NCBI GenBank assembly: GCA_021776435.1
Contig: JAJFFW010000098.1
Coordinates: forward strand, 1-64,000
Source: Parvularculaceae bacterium
Lineage (GTDB): Bacteria > Pseudomonadota > Alphaproteobacteria > Caulobacterales > Parvularculaceae
DNA length: 64,000 nt
Direction: 5' to 3'
Both the position numbers and the translations under genes were made by a program. The notes below the pieces were generated by a model. The model was not told where the DNA came from. It saw only the letters and a list, made by a program, of their open reading frames with translations, and made no database searches. Shown one piece after another: positions 54,486 through 64,000 of the stretch. Each line of letters starts with the position of its first letter. The stretch's first letter is position 1.

Positions 54486-55664
54486 TCAGTTCTTCAGCGG
54501 CTCGGTGCCTTCGCTTAATATTTCAAGATAGCGTGAATAGGCATAAACGCGCCCCCGCTGTTTGCCGCTGACCTCGTCTATCAAGCCTAGCTCTTCCAGA
54601 TGCGTCATAGCCTTTGCCGTCGCCGGGAATGAGGTTTGAATGAGCTCTGCTGCTTTTCCGATCGAAATGATGGGACGTTGCTGTAACACCTGCAGGACCG
54701 CGCCTGCGGTCGGCGCCGCGCGCCCGAGCGTCTTGACGGTTTCGAGATCGGCTTCAAATAGCTCCGAAATGCGGTGCGCCGCTTCATGGGCGCCGCGCGC
54801 GACATCGCGGACTCCGGTAAGGAAGAATTCGAGCCAGGCTTCCCAGCGGCCGTGTTCGCGGACTTCTTGAAGCAGGTCGTAATATGTTCGGCGATTGGTT
54901 TTGAAATAAAGACTGAGATAGAGGAGCGGTTCTCGCAGCAGTCCTCGCTCACAGAGATAGAGCGTGATCAATAGACGGCCGAGCCGGCCGTTGCCGTCAA
55001 GAAACGGGTGAATGGTTTCGAATTGAACATGGGCAAGCCCCGCCTTGATGATGACAGGAAGGCCGCTCTCGTCCTCATGAAGGAATGCTTCCATGTCGCT
55101 CATGAGATCGGGGACGTCGCCCGGCGGCGGCGGAACGAATAGCGCATTGCCGGGCCGCGTGCCCCCGATCCAGTTTTGCGAGGTTCTGAATTCGCCTGGC
55201 TGTTTCGTGCTGCCGCGTCCTGTCGCCAGCAGGATTTCATGCATTTCGCGTAGCAGACGAAGCGACAGCGGAAAGCCCTCCGCCATTCGGCGAAGGCCAT
55301 GGTTCAGAGCGGCGACATAGGTCGAGACTTCCGCCACATCGTCAATGGGCGCCCCCGGCGCGGCATCGCTCTCGTACAGCAGGAGATCGGAAAGGGAGGA
55401 CTGCGTGCCCTCGATCTGCGAAGAGAGCAGCGCTTCCTTACGCACATACATATATAGAAACAGGGACGTATCGGGCGCGATGGTGCGAACGCCGTCAAGC
55501 CGCCCCAAGGCGTGCATGGCTTCGCTGATCAACCCGGCGAGCGCGGATATGTCTACGGGCGGTGAAGGCGGCAGGGGGTTGGGTATATAAGCGCGCACGC
55601 GCTTGCCCACGGCGCTGGTGGTCACATAGCGCCCGATACGCTGACTTAAATCGAGTGTCGGCAT
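54486..55664 (-). CDS. Fic-family AMP-transferase with built-in inhibitory motif
   Basis: 392 residues. The active site HPFLDGNGRLGR (219-230) matches H-x-F-x-[DE]-G-N-G-R-x-x-R. The inhibitory helix SSQIEG (81-86) matches [ST]-x3-E-[GN], so this is a class II, self-inhibited Fic. A C-terminal winged-helix region (about 310-392) includes ISIGKAAELIQTSFPATAKAM, DNA-binding-like. Fic proteins AMPylate target proteins and several act as toxins or regulators. Two palindromes just upstream of its start suggest self-repression through the winged helix. Confidence 0.88.
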   Translation of the reverse strand: MPTLDLSQRIGRYVTTSAVGKRVRAYIPNPLPPSPPVDISALAGLISEAMHALGRLDGVRTIAPDTSLFLYMYVRKEALLSSQIEGTQSSLSDLLLYESDAAPGAPIDDVAEVSTYVAALNHGLRRMAEGFPLSLRLLREMHEILLATGRGSTKQPGEFRTSQNWIGGTRPGNALFVPPPPGDVPDLMSDMEAFLHEDESGLPVIIKAGLAHVQFETIHPFLDGNGRLGRLLITLYLCERGLLREPLLYLSLYFKTNRRTYYDLLQEVREHGRWEAWLEFFLTGVRDVARGAHEAAHRISELFEADLETVKTLGRAAPTAGAVLQVLQQRPIISIGKAAELIQTSFPATAKAMTHLEELGLIDEVSGKQRGRVYAYSRYLEILSEGTEPLKN

Positions 55665-56108: not shown

Positions 56109-59027
56109 TCACCCTTCTTGCTTCTTCGCCCGGTCCTGGTTTAGCTCGAACAAGCGCTTGAGAATTTCCTCGTCGGTCAGCTTACCCGATCTGAAATCCT
56201 CTTCCCAGCCATAAGCGGCGGCGACTGCCGCATCGAGCGCGCGATGCGCATTGTCGAGCCAAGCCGGGCGCTCATTGTATAGATTGGTCAGCGTGCGTTT
56301 TTTGAGAATCTTCTCCGCCTTTTCGTCCACCGGCAGGATGCGATCAGGATAGCCCTCGACCACTTCCGGCACGCGCTTGACGAGATCAGGCGGGTTCAGC
56401 CAGTTCTCGCGCAGTTCGTTCAGACTCGCTGCAGCGGCCGCGATCGCCTGCGCGCGCGGATCGTTGGCATAATCCGCAGCGGGGATGTTAGGTGTCAGAC
56501 CTTTGGGAAAGGGGAAGGTTTCGAAGCAATCACTTGGCGTATAAACAGGATCATTTCCCACGCCATGATATTGGCAATTCGCCAAAGTCCACACCTCGTG
56601 GAATTTTCCCGAAAGAATGCCAAAGACTGTGTCAGCCTCACTATCAATAATAATTACACGTGTATCTGGTATCACTACCGGGCTCGCCCACCTGAACACG
56701 CGGTATTTTGTTACAAGCCCAGTTACCAGCAACCGGGATTTTGAATTTATTGCCGCGCGAGCGGTTTCGCCAGTCCTTCTAAAGAGCCACCAATTTTTGG
56801 ACGTCCGGCTTTCACGGTTCTCGGCGCGCGCAACAGGAGTTCTCTTCTTGATTAGAGCGAATGGCGCCTCATACAGCGAAGCAGCTTCATAGTTTTTACC
56901 GAAGAAGTCTATTATCCATTTGTCAGTAGGACGGCCAATGATCTCGCGAACGGTTAAGTATGGTTTTACAACGTCAGCGTTGGAGTTACCATTGGGATTT
57001 CTTGGCAAATCAATAAGGTCAATAGCTTCATCGCGCGCTATCTCAAATGGACCACCCTTCTCAATGCCACGGACAGCTTTTTTCAAATTTTGCTTTAATA
57101 AATGCTTCTCCGATAGATCAAATGTAAATCCCTTTAGAGTCGAAGATATCTTTGCAACGTCTGCTGAGTCCAACTCGCGGCTCACCTCTTGAGAAACATC
57201 GCAAACAATTATTGAAACTCGCACATCAGCTCCATCGACGACCCATGGTTCATCGCTTCGAGCGAATGAAATTGGCGCTAAATCATATAGAGCTTCAGCC
57301 GCAAAAGAGTTTGCTGGGCTCCTAATCATATTCGTTGCAACAAATCCTACGCGTTTGGTTTTGTGGCGAATTTTATCCGCGGCTTTTAGGAACCAATAGA
57401 CAACCAGATCAATTGCATTTCCTTTCCCTTCGACGAGGGTTCGCAATTGACGGACATAATCATCCCCCAATCGATCAAGCATCCATTTGGCGCCCAGAAA
57501 TGGCGGATTCCCAACAATTACATCTGCGTCTGGCCATTGCGCTTCGCACCATTCACCAGTTTCTGGCATCTGTTCTATGAGAGCATCCCGGCATTCGATG
57601 TTCCCCAGCGGCCTAAGGATCGGATTCGTGTGCGCGCTGAATCCGTTTCGGCGCATCCATTGGATTTCGCCGATCCAGATGGAGACGCGGGCGAGCTCCG
57701 CCGCATACGGATTGATCTCGATGCCTTTAACGGCCTCGGGCCCCACTTGTGGGAAGGCGCGCGGCAGCCCCAAAGTTTCCGCATCGAGATTGGCCTTGTG
57801 TTCCAAATCCTTTAGCGCTAGCAGCGAAAGATAAAGAAAATTGCCTGATCCGCACGCGGGATCGAGCACTCGAAAAACTTTCAGACGGTCGATAAAAGCC
57901 TTGTGTAATTTTTCAGCGCTGTTGAGGGCTTTAGTGCGCGCAGCGAGCTCCTTGCCGCGCAATAGCTTTTCCTTTGTTTCCTCTGGAACGCCGGCGATAA
58001 GTTTCTCGATCTTTGCCTTTGTTTCCTCCCACTCCTTCGTCAATGGCTCGACGATAACTGGATTCACGATCATCATGATCTTGTCGCGGTCGGTATAGTG
58101 AGCACCGAGCTGTGAACGCTTTGATGGGTCCAGCCCGCGTTCGAACAATGTCCCGAGTATAGAGGGATCGATGTCTTGCCAATCGAGCTTGGCCGCCTTC
58201 AGCGCCAGTGCGACGTCATCCCGATCCATCGGCAGCGCTTCGTCGCTATCGAAGAGACCGCCATTGAACCAGGGTATCTCCTCAAAGCCGACTGCGCCGC
58301 CATCCTTCATTGCGGCGAATAATTGCTGAAGAAAGCCTTGCGCCTTTTCCGGCGACCGCTCGGCCATCTCCATCGCCTTCTGGAACATTTTGTTCGGAAG
58401 CAAGTCGACATCTTCCGCGAACATGCAGAACACGAGGCGGTTGACAAAATGCGCGACCTTTCGCGCGTAGTCCTGCTCATCTTCGCCGTCTGGACGGCGA
58501 GCGCGAAGCCGCTGCGCAAGTTCGGAGAACTCGTCCGCCGCATCGGCTGTTAATTGTGTGCGCGTGCGCTTCGGTTTCAGCGATTCCGGATTTGAGAACG
58601 CCGCTTTCAGAAGGTCGCGCTTGGCCGCATCGACCAAATCCGTCAACGCAATCTCATGGTGTTCCTGGATCGTATTCGTCCAGTTCGTCCGAATAATAAT
58701 CTTTTTGGTGTCGGAAACGATCAGTAGCGGCGGATTTTCAAGCGCCACCGAATAGCGCAGCAACTGATCGTGTGCGCGGTCGAGGTCTTTGTGAGGTCCC
58801 TTGTATTCCCAACCAAAGCACCCTTTTTTCCAAACATCGGCGAAGCCGTTGCCGCCCGTTGATTTCGTGGCGCCCTTTTCAAAGCAATATGTCTCGCCAG
58901 TCTGATCGACATCCGTTGGCTTCGGCTCATCCAGCAAGTCGCACAAATCATTAAAATGAGACTGCGCGGCGGCGCTCTCCTTGAGCGTGGACTTTTCCCA
59001 TTTACGAATGAAGTCGGTCGGATTCAT
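56109..59027 (-). CDS. Type IIL restriction-modification enzyme, MmeI-like
   Basis: 972 residues from the ATG at 59027 (a TTG at 59099 is further upstream). One chain holds an N-terminal nuclease and a methyltransferase. The nuclease motif is D-x9-E-x-K: Asp64, Glu74, Lys76 in FADVWKKGCFGWEYKG, the same spacing as MmeI. A helical connector follows. The methyltransferase shows VLDPACGSGNFLYLSLLA (motif I) and VIVGNPPFLGAKW (motif IV). The C-terminal third is the specificity part. Such enzymes cut about 20 bases from the site and protect one strand by methylation. Confidence 0.85.
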   Translation of the reverse strand: MNPTDFIRKWEKSTLKESAAAQSHFNDLCDLLDEPKPTDVDQTGETYCFEKGATKSTGGNGFADVWKKGCFGWEYKGPHKDLDRAHDQLLRYSVALENPPLLIVSDTKKIIIRTNWTNTIQEHHEIALTDLVDAAKRDLLKAAFSNPESLKPKRTRTQLTADAADEFSELAQRLRARRPDGEDEQDYARKVAHFVNRLVFCMFAEDVDLLPNKMFQKAMEMAERSPEKAQGFLQQLFAAMKDGGAVGFEEIPWFNGGLFDSDEALPMDRDDVALALKAAKLDWQDIDPSILGTLFERGLDPSKRSQLGAHYTDRDKIMMIVNPVIVEPLTKEWEETKAKIEKLIAGVPEETKEKLLRGKELAARTKALNSAEKLHKAFIDRLKVFRVLDPACGSGNFLYLSLLALKDLEHKANLDAETLGLPRAFPQVGPEAVKGIEINPYAAELARVSIWIGEIQWMRRNGFSAHTNPILRPLGNIECRDALIEQMPETGEWCEAQWPDADVIVGNPPFLGAKWMLDRLGDDYVRQLRTLVEGKGNAIDLVVYWFLKAADKIRHKTKRVGFVATNMIRSPANSFAAEALYDLAPISFARSDEPWVVDGADVRVSIIVCDVSQEVSRELDSADVAKISSTLKGFTFDLSEKHLLKQNLKKAVRGIEKGGPFEIARDEAIDLIDLPRNPNGNSNADVVKPYLTVREIIGRPTDKWIIDFFGKNYEAASLYEAPFALIKKRTPVARAENRESRTSKNWWLFRRTGETARAAINSKSRLLVTGLVTKYRVFRWASPVVIPDTRVIIIDSEADTVFGILSGKFHEVWTLANCQYHGVGNDPVYTPSDCFETFPFPKGLTPNIPAADYANDPRAQAIAAAAASLNELRENWLNPPDLVKRVPEVVEGYPDRILPVDEKAEKILKKRTLTNLYNERPAWLDNAHRALDAAVAAAYGWEEDFRSGKLTDEEILKRLFELNQDRAKKQEG

Positions 59028-59079
59028 GTTTTTATTATGCTTTGATTTATTCCGCCCAGGAAGTCTACTGAATCTTGGT

Positions 59080-60117
59080 TTACTTACTTGTTTCGACAAG
59101 CGCTCTTGCGTCTTCCGATAGCCTGGCCATTCCCTCCTTGATTCGTTCGCGCCAGCCGACGCCGCGCTTTTTGGCCTCCGCTAGCGCTGATTTGAAATCA
59201 TCCAGGCGGCGTTTGGCCGACAGTGCTTCGATCAGGGTTGCGGCTTGCGCAATGTCCTTGTCGGATTTAGCGGCGCTCTCGCCCGAGCTGTGGCGCATCG
59301 TGGCGACGATGAGTTTGTGAACGGTGTAACGCTCCGGCGTTGGAACATTGACGAGCGCGCCGGTCTTGCTGAGCACTGCCGCTTGCACGGTATCCTTCAG
59401 CAAGAAGTCCATGAAACGAAGCGGAACGGCGTCGGTCTTGAGGCTCGGCAATTGCACGGGTTCGTCGCGGCCCTTGCCGCGATTGGTCGTGAGCACATCG
59501 ACGCGATAACCGCCCGGCCGCGCATAGGTTGTCGCTGCGGTCGGCGATGAAATGTGCGGAACCGGCGAGAATCGTTTGTCGACTTGTTGCAAGATGTCGA
59601 GAAACGGCGCGTCAACGGAATCATCAATCGCGACGGCGACCCCGTAGTCTTGCGCTACGTCAACGTCGCCGGTTCTGATCGACGCGCCCGGCAGTTTGAC
59701 GCCAAGCAACCCTGCATAGGTCTGGAACGCGACCGTGCCGACAATGACGCCGCGCAGACGGAAGACGCCGGCTTCGGCGAGCGCTTCAATTACGGCCGCG
59801 GTCAGTGCATCAGGTTCGGGAAGCCCTGCGCCTTTTAGCGAGCGGATAATTGCTTTGCGCGCATCGGCGTCCGCCTTGGCGGCCTGGCCTTTTTCGATCG
59901 CTGCGGCGAACTCTTCAGTGTCAGGGCCGAGATAGCGCTCGGGCGGGCGGCCGCTCGGCCCGGTCGGCTCCTGGACATACCAATACGTCTTGCCGGAAAT
60001 CTCTCGTTTGCGGAACGTCGAGCCGACCGGGAAGTCCGACGCCGTCTGGACGCGCAGAAGGTCTACGAGCTCGGCGTAGCTGGTCTGGATAACAAGCGGC
60101 AGTTCATGAATTGGCAT
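59080..60117 (-). CDS. GSU2403-like nucleotidyltransferase-fold protein
   Basis: 345 residues. The nucleotidyltransferase core is VIVGTVAFQTYAGLLGVKLPG followed by IRTGDVDVAQDYGV with Asp151-x-Asp153 and an upstream Gly-Thr pair (127-128), quoted in part. This resembles the GSU2403 family, related to AbiEii-like toxins, but a toxic role is not shown here. The N-terminal 90 residues include KTYWYVQEPTGPSGRPPERY and a charged helix. It starts at 60117 within an operator and ends 52 bases before the restriction gene's start, so the two are probably one transcript. Confidence 0.75.
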   Translation of the reverse strand: MPIHELPLVIQTSYAELVDLLRVQTASDFPVGSTFRKREISGKTYWYVQEPTGPSGRPPERYLGPDTEEFAAAIEKGQAAKADADARKAIIRSLKGAGLPEPDALTAAVIEALAEAGVFRLRGVIVGTVAFQTYAGLLGVKLPGASIRTGDVDVAQDYGVAVAIDDSVDAPFLDILQQVDKRFSPVPHISSPTAATTYARPGGYRVDVLTTNRGKGRDEPVQLPSLKTDAVPLRFMDFLLKDTVQAAVLSKTGALVNVPTPERYTVHKLIVATMRHSSGESAAKSDKDIAQAATLIEALSAKRRLDDFKSALAEAKKRGVGWRERIKEGMARLSEDARALVETSK

Positions 60118-60422: not shown

Positions 60423-61307
60423 ATGAAACCCCGCAACAAGACTTCACTCTACACGGACGTAACGAACCGCATCATCATCGAACTCGAAGAAGGCCGCTTG
60501 CCCTGGGTGCAGCCCTGGAGCGCCGAGCAATTGTCCGCGCCCTTGGGCCTGCCGAAAAACGCCGCCACCGGCCGCGCCTATTCCGGCATCAACATCCTGA
60601 TCCTCTGGGACGCCACCGCCGAACACATCCGATCGACGCAGCGCTGGCTCACCTTCAAACAGGCGCAAACGCTCGGCGGAACCGTGCGCAAAGGTGAGAA
60701 AGGCGTCACCGTCTGTTACGCCGATCGCTTCACGCCGAAAACGGAAATCGATCGCGCCGCGGAAGCCGGCGAGCAACCGCAACAAGTCGCATTTCTGAAG
60801 CGCTACACTGTCTTCAACGTCGATCAATGCGACGGCTTAGGGGACGATCTATACGCCGACCCGGCGCCATTGCCGGAGCGTGAAATCATCCCTCACGCTG
60901 AAGCAGTCATCGCCGCAACTGGCGCCGATATCCGCATGGGCGGCGCGAAAGCCTTCTACAATCCGGCCCATGATTTCATCGCCATCCCGCCGCAACAGGC
61001 CTTCTTCGATCAGATCAATTTCTATCGCACCGCGTTCCATGAACTCTCGCACTGGACCGGTCACAAGAGCCGTCTTGACCGCGAGTTCAGCGGCAAATTC
61101 GGTTCGGAATCTTACGCCCGCGAGGAGCTTGTCGCCGAACTTTCTACCGGGTTCATTTGCGCCGAGCTTGGCATTCGCCCGACCGTCTGCCACGCCGATT
61201 ATATCGGCGCCTGGCTGGAGGCTCTCCGCGAGGATGACAAGGCGATTTTCCGCGCTGCGTCGCAGGCTTCGAAGGCTGCGGAATTCGTGATTGGCGGCGC
61301 TAACTAG
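60423..61307 (+). CDS. ardC: ArdC-like antirestriction protein
   Basis: 294 residues. The N-terminal part (about 8-135) is an ArdC-type single-stranded DNA-binding domain (DUF1738) with YTDVTNRIIIELEEGRLPWVQPW and the WLTFKQAQTLGGTVRKGEKG motif, quoted in part. The C-terminal domain has a zincin site FHELSHWTGH (His206, Glu207, His210) with the third ligand likely in REELVAELSTGF. ArdC proteins protect incoming plasmid or ICE DNA from restriction. It lies near a type IIL restriction gene but faces the other way. Confidence 0.9.
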   Translation: MKPRNKTSLYTDVTNRIIIELEEGRLPWVQPWSAEQLSAPLGLPKNAATGRAYSGINILILWDATAEHIRSTQRWLTFKQAQTLGGTVRKGEKGVTVCYADRFTPKTEIDRAAEAGEQPQQVAFLKRYTVFNVDQCDGLGDDLYADPAPLPEREIIPHAEAVIAATGADIRMGGAKAFYNPAHDFIAIPPQQAFFDQINFYRTAFHELSHWTGHKSRLDREFSGKFGSESYAREELVAELSTGFICAELGIRPTVCHADYIGAWLEALREDDKAIFRAASQASKAAEFVIGGAN

Positions 61308-61795: not shown

Positions 61796-62765
61796 AACTT
61801 GCGCATATTAGAGAAAGCATGCGCACCGAGAACGCGCTAAAACTCGTCGATGAATTGGAGAAAAACTAATTCGATGCAGCGAAAATTCCGCCCAATTTGC
61901 AGATCGTCACTGTCAATAAAACGAACTTTCAGCCGCCAGAATGAGCCTAAATGCTCACTCAACATGAAGCCTTTTTGAATCGAAAAGCGATCGAACTTAC
62001 CGTAAATCGTGCGCCTCTACCGTCGGATAATATCCGCGATTTTCGCCGCACCAATGGCAAATCGGACGCCCCCCCGGCGGTGAACGCCGTCTCAAGTGAA
62101 GAAATCCGTAAACAAAGCAATTGCGAGAGAGTGAGTGACAAGGGGAAGAAAGGCTGTGAGGGCAAGATTAAAGAGGCGGCGCCGCTATGCGGCTAAGCCC
62201 TTGTCTGCACATCCTTTTAGGCGGCGCCGCTTTAATAGGGGCGGCGCCAAAATGCGGCGTTTGCGACGTGCAAAAATTCCGGCCGCAGATCGGTTCGGCG
62301 GCGGTTGTTTCAGCATCGAAGAAGTGACACTGCCAGGCGCGTCTATCTCGAGAATTTCGCTGAATGTTCTGCTAGGGCACCTGAAGAGTTTTCATCGGTT
62401 CGAAGGAGGTCGAGATCGCCGGTTTTGCAGGCGCGTGATGAAGCACCTGTTATTGCGGAAAACGGCCGACGTTTTCGAACAATGTAGCTGCTAAGGAATT
62501 GGCACGTAATAAAACGGTCGGATCATTGTCCTCTCTGCGCGCAGAACCGGACATAGAAAATTGGTAAACAGCCAAAGTGCCAAACTCTTGCCGTGCCAGC
62601 GAGAATTCGCTTGAGTTAATGCATCGGGAATTCGCAATACACTCAGCACGGTACTTGTAAGCGCGCTGGGGAAAACAAAAGATCGCATTAGCGCTTGAAA
62701 TAACCGCGCGCCATTCTCAAGTGGCACACATCGGCGTCATTTGGGCGTCGCAGTCGATCGTTTAA
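61796..62765. other. Relic-rich non-coding region with GGCGGCGCC repeats
   Basis: No intact gene is supported. AGGCGGCGCCGCT occurs at 62174-62186 and 62219-62231, 45 bases apart, with a shorter GGCGGCGCC at 62240-62248. Two partial frames (62135-62494 and 62305-62487) run in different phases over the same stretch and look like broken coding DNA. The region separates the conjugative relics from the reverse transcriptase. Confidence 0.5.
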
Positions 62766-62986
62766 ACTGTCAAGGCCTGTTGCCAAGTTTGTGCAGATTT
62801 TGGGGTTCACTTGTTGAGCTTCCTTATTTGGACCGACGATACGGCGACTACCCTGGATTACCCAGAGTATGATGACCTTAATAGTATATACGACTACGTC
62901 GATAGATTGGCACCACGCAGAACAGTCGGGGCCGGAACTGATAAGGGTAAGTGTCATGCCTGATGTTTCGGCCCCTCTCGCGTTTT
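62766..62986 (+). other. Candidate non-coding RNA region upstream of the RT
   Basis: An uninterrupted 64-codon frame without ATG runs from 62766 to 62960 on the plus strand and is acidic and Tyr-rich (WTDDTATTLDYPEYDDLNSI). GGGGCCG (62928-62934) pairs with CGGCCCC (62969-62975) to make a stem-loop just before the reverse transcriptase start. Reverse transcriptases of the DRT2 kind use an upstream RNA as template for a repeating, stop-free gene, so this region is a candidate; it is not demonstrated. Confidence 0.35.
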
Positions 62987-64000
62987 ATGGAACCTGATTT
63001 CTCCCCCAAGGACCTCAAGCATTATCCTCACTTTGATCGTCGTCTATCGATCGAAGAAGCAAACGAGATTGTTGCGGATCCTGACCGTGTAGCATCAAAC
63101 AAATTCTATCCTTTTTTTTTATATCACGAGACTTGGCAACCGTTCCGAACGGCAGCTAAGAACCGACCAACGCCAAAATCCCGGCCAATTCGTTACGCAG
63201 CGCGCAGGGACGCATATATTCTGACGCACTACAGAAGAATACTGGCCGAAAAGTACGAGCAACGTCTTGCTGATTTACACATTGAGGAATGTCCGATTGC
63301 TTATCGGAAAATACCGAAGGTGTATGGAGGCGGAAAATGTAACATCGATTTTGCAAAAGACGCATTCGACGAAATCGAGCGTCAAGGCGACTGTGTAGCC
63401 ATCGCTCTCGATATTAAAGGCTACTTCGAGAATCTTGACCATGTGCGCATCAAAGAAGTTTGGTGCGATTTGCTAGGAGTTGGACGCCTTCCGCCAGATC
63501 ACTTTACTGTTTTCAAAAACGTCACGAAATACCATGTCGTTGATCAAAAGGATGTTTATCGTCGATTGGGTTTCATTGAGACCGTTGAGGTAAACGGTTA
63601 TCCGAGAGAGCGGTACACTGTGCCGTTTAAGGATATGCCCACCCAGCTCTGCACGCCGGCTGAATTTAGAGAAAAGATATGTGGCGGCGATCCCGGCTTG
63701 CCAAGTCTGGTGCGCGCAAACTGCGACGACAAAGGCAACCTACTGGATCATGGGGTGCCACAAGGCGCGCCAATATCTGACTTGATAGCCAACTTCTATT
63801 TGTTGGAATTCGATGTAGCACTGAATGAATACGCCAAAGAACGAGGCGGCCGTTATATGCGGTATTCGGATGACATTTTATTGATTGTACCGGGTGATTC
63901 ATTGGAAGCGAATGAGGCCGAAAAATTTACCATCAACGAAATCCGAAAATTCGGCAGGGAAATAAAAATCAAAGAAGAAAAAACCTGTATCGTCAGCTTT
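62987..64000 (+). CDS. Reverse transcriptase, unknown-group/DRT-like (3' end cut by window)
   Basis: 338 residues visible, open at the window end. Polymerase motifs: ALDIKGYFENLDH (motif A, Asp142), HGVPQGAPISDLIAN (256-269) and RYMRYSDDILLI with the YSDD box (293-296), then IKIKEEKTC. About 110 residues separate motif A from the QG motif, far more than in retron or group II enzymes; the insert includes FKNVTKYHVVDQKDVYRRLG and MPTQLCTPAEFREKICGGDP. No maturase or retron features are seen so far. This suggests an antiviral unknown-group (UG/DRT) enzyme, perhaps DRT2-like. A GTG at 62951 and ATG at 62963 are alternative starts. Confidence 0.75.
   Translation, partial: MEPDFSPKDLKHYPHFDRRLSIEEANEIVADPDRVASNKFYPFFLYHETWQPFRTAAKNRPTPKSRPIRYAARRDAYILTHYRRILAEKYEQRLADLHIEECPIAYRKIPKVYGGGKCNIDFAKDAFDEIERQGDCVAIALDIKGYFENLDHVRIKEVWCDLLGVGRLPPDHFTVFKNVTKYHVVDQKDVYRRLGFIETVEVNGYPRERYTVPFKDMPTQLCTPAEFREKICGGDPGLPSLVRANCDDKGNLLDHGVPQGAPISDLIANFYLLEFDVALNEYAKERGGRYMRYSDDILLIVPGDSLEANEAEKFTINEIRKFGREIKIKEEKTCIVSF

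Follow-up and report, generated by a model that had tools for sequence, protein, structure and literature searches.

The reverse transcriptase (RT) gene that opens near the end of the window, the whole stretch of 64,000 nucleotides analysed here, raises two questions: to which family of enzymes the RT belongs, and what it copies. The first-pass annotation of this DNA had described a possible new or divergent DRT, of the unknown-group (UG) kind that serves in phage defence, whose subfamily could not be fixed and whose gene was said to sit alone at the end of a run of antirestriction, restriction and toxin-like genes.

Family and extent of the reverse transcriptase

The RT reading frame lies on the forward strand at 62951/62987–64000 of the window, and the catalytic boxes reported as intact (LDIKGYF, VPQGAPIS and YSDD) were confirmed in the sequence. 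The frame overruns the window end, and extension past position 64000, as the first-pass annotation had proposed, gave the complete gene, with a stop ending at position 64495 of the 91,792-base contig. The protein is 502 aa long when read from the ATG at 62987 and 514 aa from an in-frame GTG at 62951. The ATG is the likelier start because the GTG falls inside the conserved RNA scaffold described below. DIKGYFENLDH, PQGAPISD and YSDD are all intact in the complete protein.

The gene (62987–64000, continuing to contig position 64495, forward strand) was assigned as a DRT2-type RT by profile, by PDB sequence match and by AlphaFold/Foldseek. The PADLOC Drt2 profile PDLC03757 matched residues 15–495 with 449 bits (E = 6.5e-135) and a second PADLOC Drt2 model scored 298.6 bits, against 69.5 bits for the best non-Drt2 family; the PADLOC Drt9 profile reached 40.6 bits. 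The Drt2 equivalog model was the top NCBI match at 344.9 bits, short of its cut-off of 390 bits, and the RT is outside NCBI's narrow Drt2 definition, which leaves out the alphaproteobacterial clade. The top structure in a PDB sequence search was that of KpnDRT2 (9c0i, E 1.2e-56). An AlphaFold model built with an alignment of 30 rows (pLDDT 89, pTM 0.84) also placed 9c0i first in the whole-fold comparison by Foldseek (E 8.1e-35, TM 0.72/0.84), with the second structure at E 2.4e-10; overall, the model thus agrees with the DRT2 fold, which is marked by a long helical thumb and a finger insertion.

In a tree of 38 DRT2 proteins the RT fell into a fully supported 24-row clade (SH-aLRT 100) with a long stem, separate from both the Klebsiella-type proteins and those of Bacteroidota. 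All rows of this clade that are named by organism belong to Pseudomonadota and nearly all to Alphaproteobacteria, including Ruegeria, Litoreibacter, Sulfitobacter, Paracoccus, Caenispirillum, Novacetimonas, Tsuneonella and other genera, with one gammaproteobacterial metagenome bin. On the basis of profile, fold and tree, the RT is a DRT2 (UG2) enzyme. It belongs to a deep branch of Alphaproteobacteria whose sister is the Klebsiella type that has been studied. The subfamily that had been left unassigned can thus be fixed as DRT2/UG2, and the reading as a divergent defence-type UG/DRT enzyme is upheld, the gene being carried on a defence-rich mobile element.

It had also been suggested that C-terminal fusion partners could follow, or that a nitrilase, SLATT or other DRT partner might lie downstream. 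Over its 514 aa the protein matched RVT_1 only in a Pfam search; maturase and fused domains were absent, as were nitrilase and SLATT partners. Placement with group II or DGR enzymes, or a maturase domain, had been named as outcomes that would speak against the DRT reading; neither arose, 9c0i being the best match by sequence as well as by fold. The RT does give weak matches to group II RT profiles (61.5 bits, with a cut-off of 300), but no family other than Drt2 exceeds 69.5 bits against its 449, the maturase domain is missing, and the fold match drops from E 8e-35 for DRT2 to 2e-10 for the next structure. That the RT belongs to a group II intron or another mobile element and has no part in defence is hardly conceivable, and this explanation is already refuted by the profile, domain and fold results.

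The protein had been singled out for a long motif insert, with about 110 residues between the first and second catalytic boxes. The measurement was right, with 116 residues between motif A and motif B. However, the distance is 92–94 residues in Klebsiella-type proteins, 102–116 in the alphaproteobacterial clade and mostly 108–120 in Bacteroidota DRT2. Such a stretch is normal across DRT2, a trait of the family and not peculiar to the window protein.

The upstream RNA and the antisense repeat

The surroundings of the gene match the first-pass description, with ArdC, MmeI-like and Fic genes present. The gene does not, however, truly sit alone, since it is immediately preceded by a conserved RNA element. 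This RNA, with its Neo-like antisense frame, had escaped the first-pass annotation. A genome scan yielded 56 RT relatives with flanking DNA, among which conservation within the 1.6 kb ArdC-to-RT interval is confined to the final 270 bases before the RT. Two conserved blocks flank a variable middle there, which is the layout of a DRT2 ncRNA, and an nhmmer profile of the element found it in 25 distinct loci, always at the same position ahead of the RT. In the window the element, a putative DRT2 ncRNA of ~258 nt, occupies 62728–62985 on the forward strand, as delimited by nhmmer, alignment A1 and covariation. Of the 40 pairs predicted in the consensus fold, 20 have changed on both sides. In the helices 94.6% of the cells are paired, as against 40–48% in slid controls, and the observed level of covariation was reached by no shuffle.

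A 5′ handle hairpin lies at 62732–62750 (forward strand; helix 1, with compensatory changes in five of seven pairs) and a 3′ scaffold, comprising a tower-like stem and an inner hairpin, at 62898–62983 (forward strand; helices 6–8). Helices 7 and 8 are ~99% paired with compensatory changes and helix 6 is weaker at 88%; the nested helices of the fold are supported by the covariation analysis. An Rfam search of the region returned a single sub-threshold chance match and recognised no DRT2 RNA. A candidate −35 for the RNA and the RT, TTGAAA at 62695–62700 on the forward strand, was proposed from its match to the consensus, with CTTG conserved there in relatives; the corresponding −10 is weak in the window.

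The interest of the variable middle comes from KpnDRT2, in which the RT copies its template end to end and assembles, by rolling-circle reverse transcription, the effector Neo. The antisense concatemer of KpnDRT2 has a junction-split promoter, a stop-free repeat whose length is a multiple of three, and a Shine-Dalgarno sequence with a start (PMC12039810, PMC11100668). When 62760–62897 was reverse-complemented and concatenated, a 138-nt repeat with one stop-free frame was obtained. This predicted template, one neo repeat unit of 46 codons when circularly joined, is read on the reverse strand (VVVYTIKVIILWVIQGSRRIVGPNKEAQQVNPKICTNLATGLDSLN). Cut at the positions matching 62760/62897, all 20 aligned loci gave units of either 138 or 141 nt. 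A single antisense frame was free of stops in every one of them; the five remaining frames contain 13–65 stops. Over 300 shuffles of the alignment columns the frame held 33 stops on average and never fewer than 6. Across the 25 loci repeat lengths range from 120 to 150 nt and every one is a multiple of 3. Protein similarity in the neo frame was 1.87, against 1.36 ± 0.13 after shuffling. Rates at the three codon positions of the template hardly differ (0.39, 0.38, 0.41), and the coding signal therefore rests on the stops, the frame, the promoter and the start.

The promoter was found in two halves on the reverse strand. The −35 (TTGACA, 62768–62773) is exact in 24 of the 25 loci, the exception being L024, and the −10 (TATACT, 62883–62888) fits TATANT in 18 loci and has TAT as its first three bases in 23, being weak in L014 and L015. 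In the window unit TTGACA-N17-TATACT is formed across the repeat junction and the 17 bp spacing arises only after joining; the promoter spans the junction in 20/20 aligned loci. The predicted neo start codon, a GTG at 62808–62810 (reverse strand; ATG in most relatives), lies in frame behind a Shine-Dalgarno sequence, AAGGAAG at 62819–62825 on the same strand, where a GGAG-type motif is conserved in relatives. An in-frame ATG or GTG 5–10 nt behind such a motif was detected in 25/25 loci. The start falls at codon 24–34 of the unit and the ~23–33 codons before it are free of stops in every locus, which is sensible only for a unit that is read in concatemeric form.

Five loci outside the alignment (Azospirillum L064, Tsuneonella L021, Sneathiella L022, L075 and L076), cut at matching motifs, all showed a length divisible by 3, the same stop-free frame and TTGACA-N17-TATAxx. 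As these cuts were chosen by edge motif, the frame provides an independent test, whereas that provided by the spacing is semi-independent. Two clade loci, L008 and L020, give frame-breaking lengths with the simple cut. It should also be noted that in L077/L078 (G794), the one clade locus with a broken RT, the RT is split by a stop; its promoter halves and frame are kept and its Shine-Dalgarno start is lost, which we read, from the sequence, as decay. The procedure was calibrated on the Klebsiella-type loci L071 and L061, cut at ACA (or ATA) motifs, where it returned units of 117 and 111 nt with a stop-free frame and TTGACA-N17-TATAAT, matching the published anatomy (PMC12039810). Klebsiella-type and alphaproteobacterial units agree in the register of their promoter halves (xTT GAC A.., TAT A..).

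The template edges read GTT... and GTCG..., with GU alone common to both, and no flanking ACA is present. Among the cuts that keep the 17 bp spacing in 21 loci (near copies omitted), two bases are shared at both edges in 20/21 loci when 8 bases are kept on the −35 side and 9 on the −10 side (x=8), and in at most 6/21 elsewhere; we infer the exact junction base from this pattern. The shared motif has 2 nt, as against 3 in KpnDRT2, and less homology would thus be available for any jump. As ACA-1/ACA-2 motifs are missing from the template edges, the subtype differs from the KpnDRT2 type. Judged from these loci, the published rule for Neo fails in this clade with respect to ACA and holds with respect to the antisense frame and the split promoter at 17 bp. 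A promoter spacing of 19 bp with an ACGT-based jump motif was also considered and dropped, as the frame is then interrupted (TGA in L009). RNAalifold placed hairpins CAGU/ACUG and CGAC/GUCG at the two template edges; the former never varies and is therefore uninformative either way. A stem flanking the proposed cut, equivalent to SL2 of Klebsiella, was sought and no version fitted all loci.

Proposed mechanism, alternatives and genomic setting

We consider it very probable that the locus is a divergent alphaproteobacterial DRT2 phage-defence system making Neo from the 138-nt template via concatemeric cDNA. At the level of sequence, the analysis establishes the family and fold of the RT, the covariation of the RNA, a stop-free frame in circularly permuted form, the two-part promoter and the start site. 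RNA binding, priming, jumping, the phage trigger and growth arrest are carried over from the Klebsiella work. By that analogy, the RT would bind the upstream RNA, with priming near the template 3′ end as in Klebsiella DRT2, copy the 138-nt template to its 5′ end, jump back to the 3′ edge and restart, the jump being guided by the GU common to both edges instead of ACA. The product would be a head-to-tail repeat DNA. Second-strand synthesis would take place during infection, each junction placing −35 and −10 at 17 bp, and the repeat would be transcribed backwards relative to the RNA. Translation from the Shine-Dalgarno/GTG would then yield a stop-less repetitive Neo with 46 aa per repeat, and this protein is expected to arrest the infected cell.

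The same RT and template RNA could act differently if the cDNA itself were the effector, as with the poly-dA of DRT9, and the antisense frame arose simply from RNA structure. Non-coding cDNA is indeed the means by which Class 2 relatives, DRT9 among them, work (PMC12483538), and the nearly flat codon-position rates would agree with this. Yet a non-coding cDNA needs neither the zero stops in 25 loci, nor lengths that are all multiples of 3, nor a Shine-Dalgarno start, nor a split sigma-70 promoter at exact spacing, and these features count against an explanation that we regard as quite unlikely. An ordinary small antisense gene, read linearly from the chromosome, is very improbable: a linear antisense ORF is present (62688–62957), but −35 and −10 stand in the wrong order on the chromosome, the start codon lies in mid-unit behind ~23–33 conserved stop-free codons, and in most relatives a stop follows just beyond the template 5′ edge (ACG-TAA or ACG-TGA, alignment A1).

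It is also unlikely that the system is decayed and non-functional on a decaying mobile element. The frameshifted integrase beside the RT and the weak −10 of the RNA promoter in the window point in that direction. Against it, the RT is intact in reading frame and catalytic motifs, and the RNA helices, the frame of the template, both promoter halves and the start site are preserved as well. L077/L078 differs in having a broken RT and no remaining neo start.

The setting of the RT is a mobile, conjugation-linked defence island. Upstream of the RT lie genes for an ArdC antirestriction protein (60423–61307), an MmeI-like restriction-methylation protein (56109–59099, reverse strand) and a Fic protein (54486–55664). 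Downstream of the RT, a small helix-turn-helix protein and a frameshifted integrase of the phage type are encoded, together with a multi-ubiquitin/E2/E1-JAB conjugation system and the conjugation protein TrbI. The RT occurs in none of the 61 other genomes of the window's family (62 in all), which fits recent transfer. Its own genome holds no other RVT_1 gene, and a search for a tRNA as integration site found none.

Several further observations were made on this element. The MmeI-like gene overlaps that of an NTP_transf_8-type nucleotidyltransferase (together window 56109–60117, reverse strand), and the pair is a possible further defence unit. The arm-binding domain and catalytic part of the integrase beside the RT (L003:3522–5068, contig 65021–66567, reverse strand) are in different frames, and the enzyme is therefore probably inactive in this genome. 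Multi-ubiquitin, Prok-E2 and E1/JAB genes (L003:5362–8257, reverse strand) form a bacterial ubiquitin-like conjugation system on the RT's own element, and a helix-turn-helix protein followed by a CapP-like peptidase (L003:9229–10665, forward strand) is a regulator pair seen with defence systems. Upstream of the RNA, a 61-base GC-rich sequence (window 62158–62218) has an inverted copy with 77% identity close to the contig end, at contig 90489–90550 on the reverse strand.

Candidate Neo across DRT2 lineages and comparison with known systems

DRT2 and Neo themselves are already known. A preprint by the discoverers of DRT2 states that annotation of Neo was more challenging in divergent DRT2 clades, and a search of openly readable main texts found no later paper giving Neo for Alphaproteobacteria or Bacteroidota. 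The present clade loci supply a concrete and testable candidate Neo for a divergent clade, with exact repeat, promoter and start, and a testable candidate is likewise supplied for Bacteroidota DRT2. In 18 Bacteroidota loci (L029–L059) a Neo-like antisense unit of 150–159 nt was found in the upstream RNA, between two ATACC motifs ~300 bases ahead of the RT, with a length divisible by three in 18/18 and a stop-free frame in 18/18. TTTG-N20-TAnnTTTG, which we take to be the Bacteroidota promoter consensus, spans the junction in 16/18 (one with a last-base change).

With a slight preference, we suggest that assembly of the Neo gene is ancestral to DRT2 and that the jump motif and promoter grammar are lineage-specific: ACA with sigma-70 in the Klebsiella type, GU with sigma-70 in the alphaproteobacterial clade, and ATACC with TTTG-N20-TAnnTTTG in Bacteroidota. 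If this is true, jumping in the alphaproteobacterial clade would work on almost no primer-template homology, and the RNA structure or the RT itself would therefore have to place the cDNA end.

Compared with known systems, the next structural neighbours of the window RT are the group II intron RT and G2L4, which share its RT palm and fingers; unlike the group II enzymes, the window RT is without a maturase domain, and the fold match is E 2e-10 as against 8e-35 for DRT2. DRT9 (UG28) is likewise a Class 2 UG RT with an upstream ncRNA template, but its product is a poly-dA homopolymer and the enzyme is a protein-primed hexamer (PMC12483538), and its profile scores the aforementioned 40.6 bits on the window RT. 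The closest counterpart is KpnDRT2, consisting of the RT, a 281-nt ncRNA and neo, which has the RT family and fold in common with the window locus and carries no extra protein domain. Both have an upstream structured RNA of similar size with a 5′ hairpin and a 3′ scaffold, as well as an antisense repeat divisible by 3 with a stop-free frame, a junction-split TTGACA-N17-TATAxT in the same register, and a Shine-Dalgarno sequence with a start. However, the window RT is ~31% identical in protein sequence to the closest locus of the Klebsiella type and falls in a separate clade, and its clade differs in the A-to-B stretch (about 110–116 residues against 92–94), the repeat (138/141 nt against 120 in KpnDRT2), the position of the start (~30 codons into the unit against ~13 in the two Klebsiella-type loci analysed) and the template edges, where ACA in KpnDRT2 is replaced by a shared GU only.
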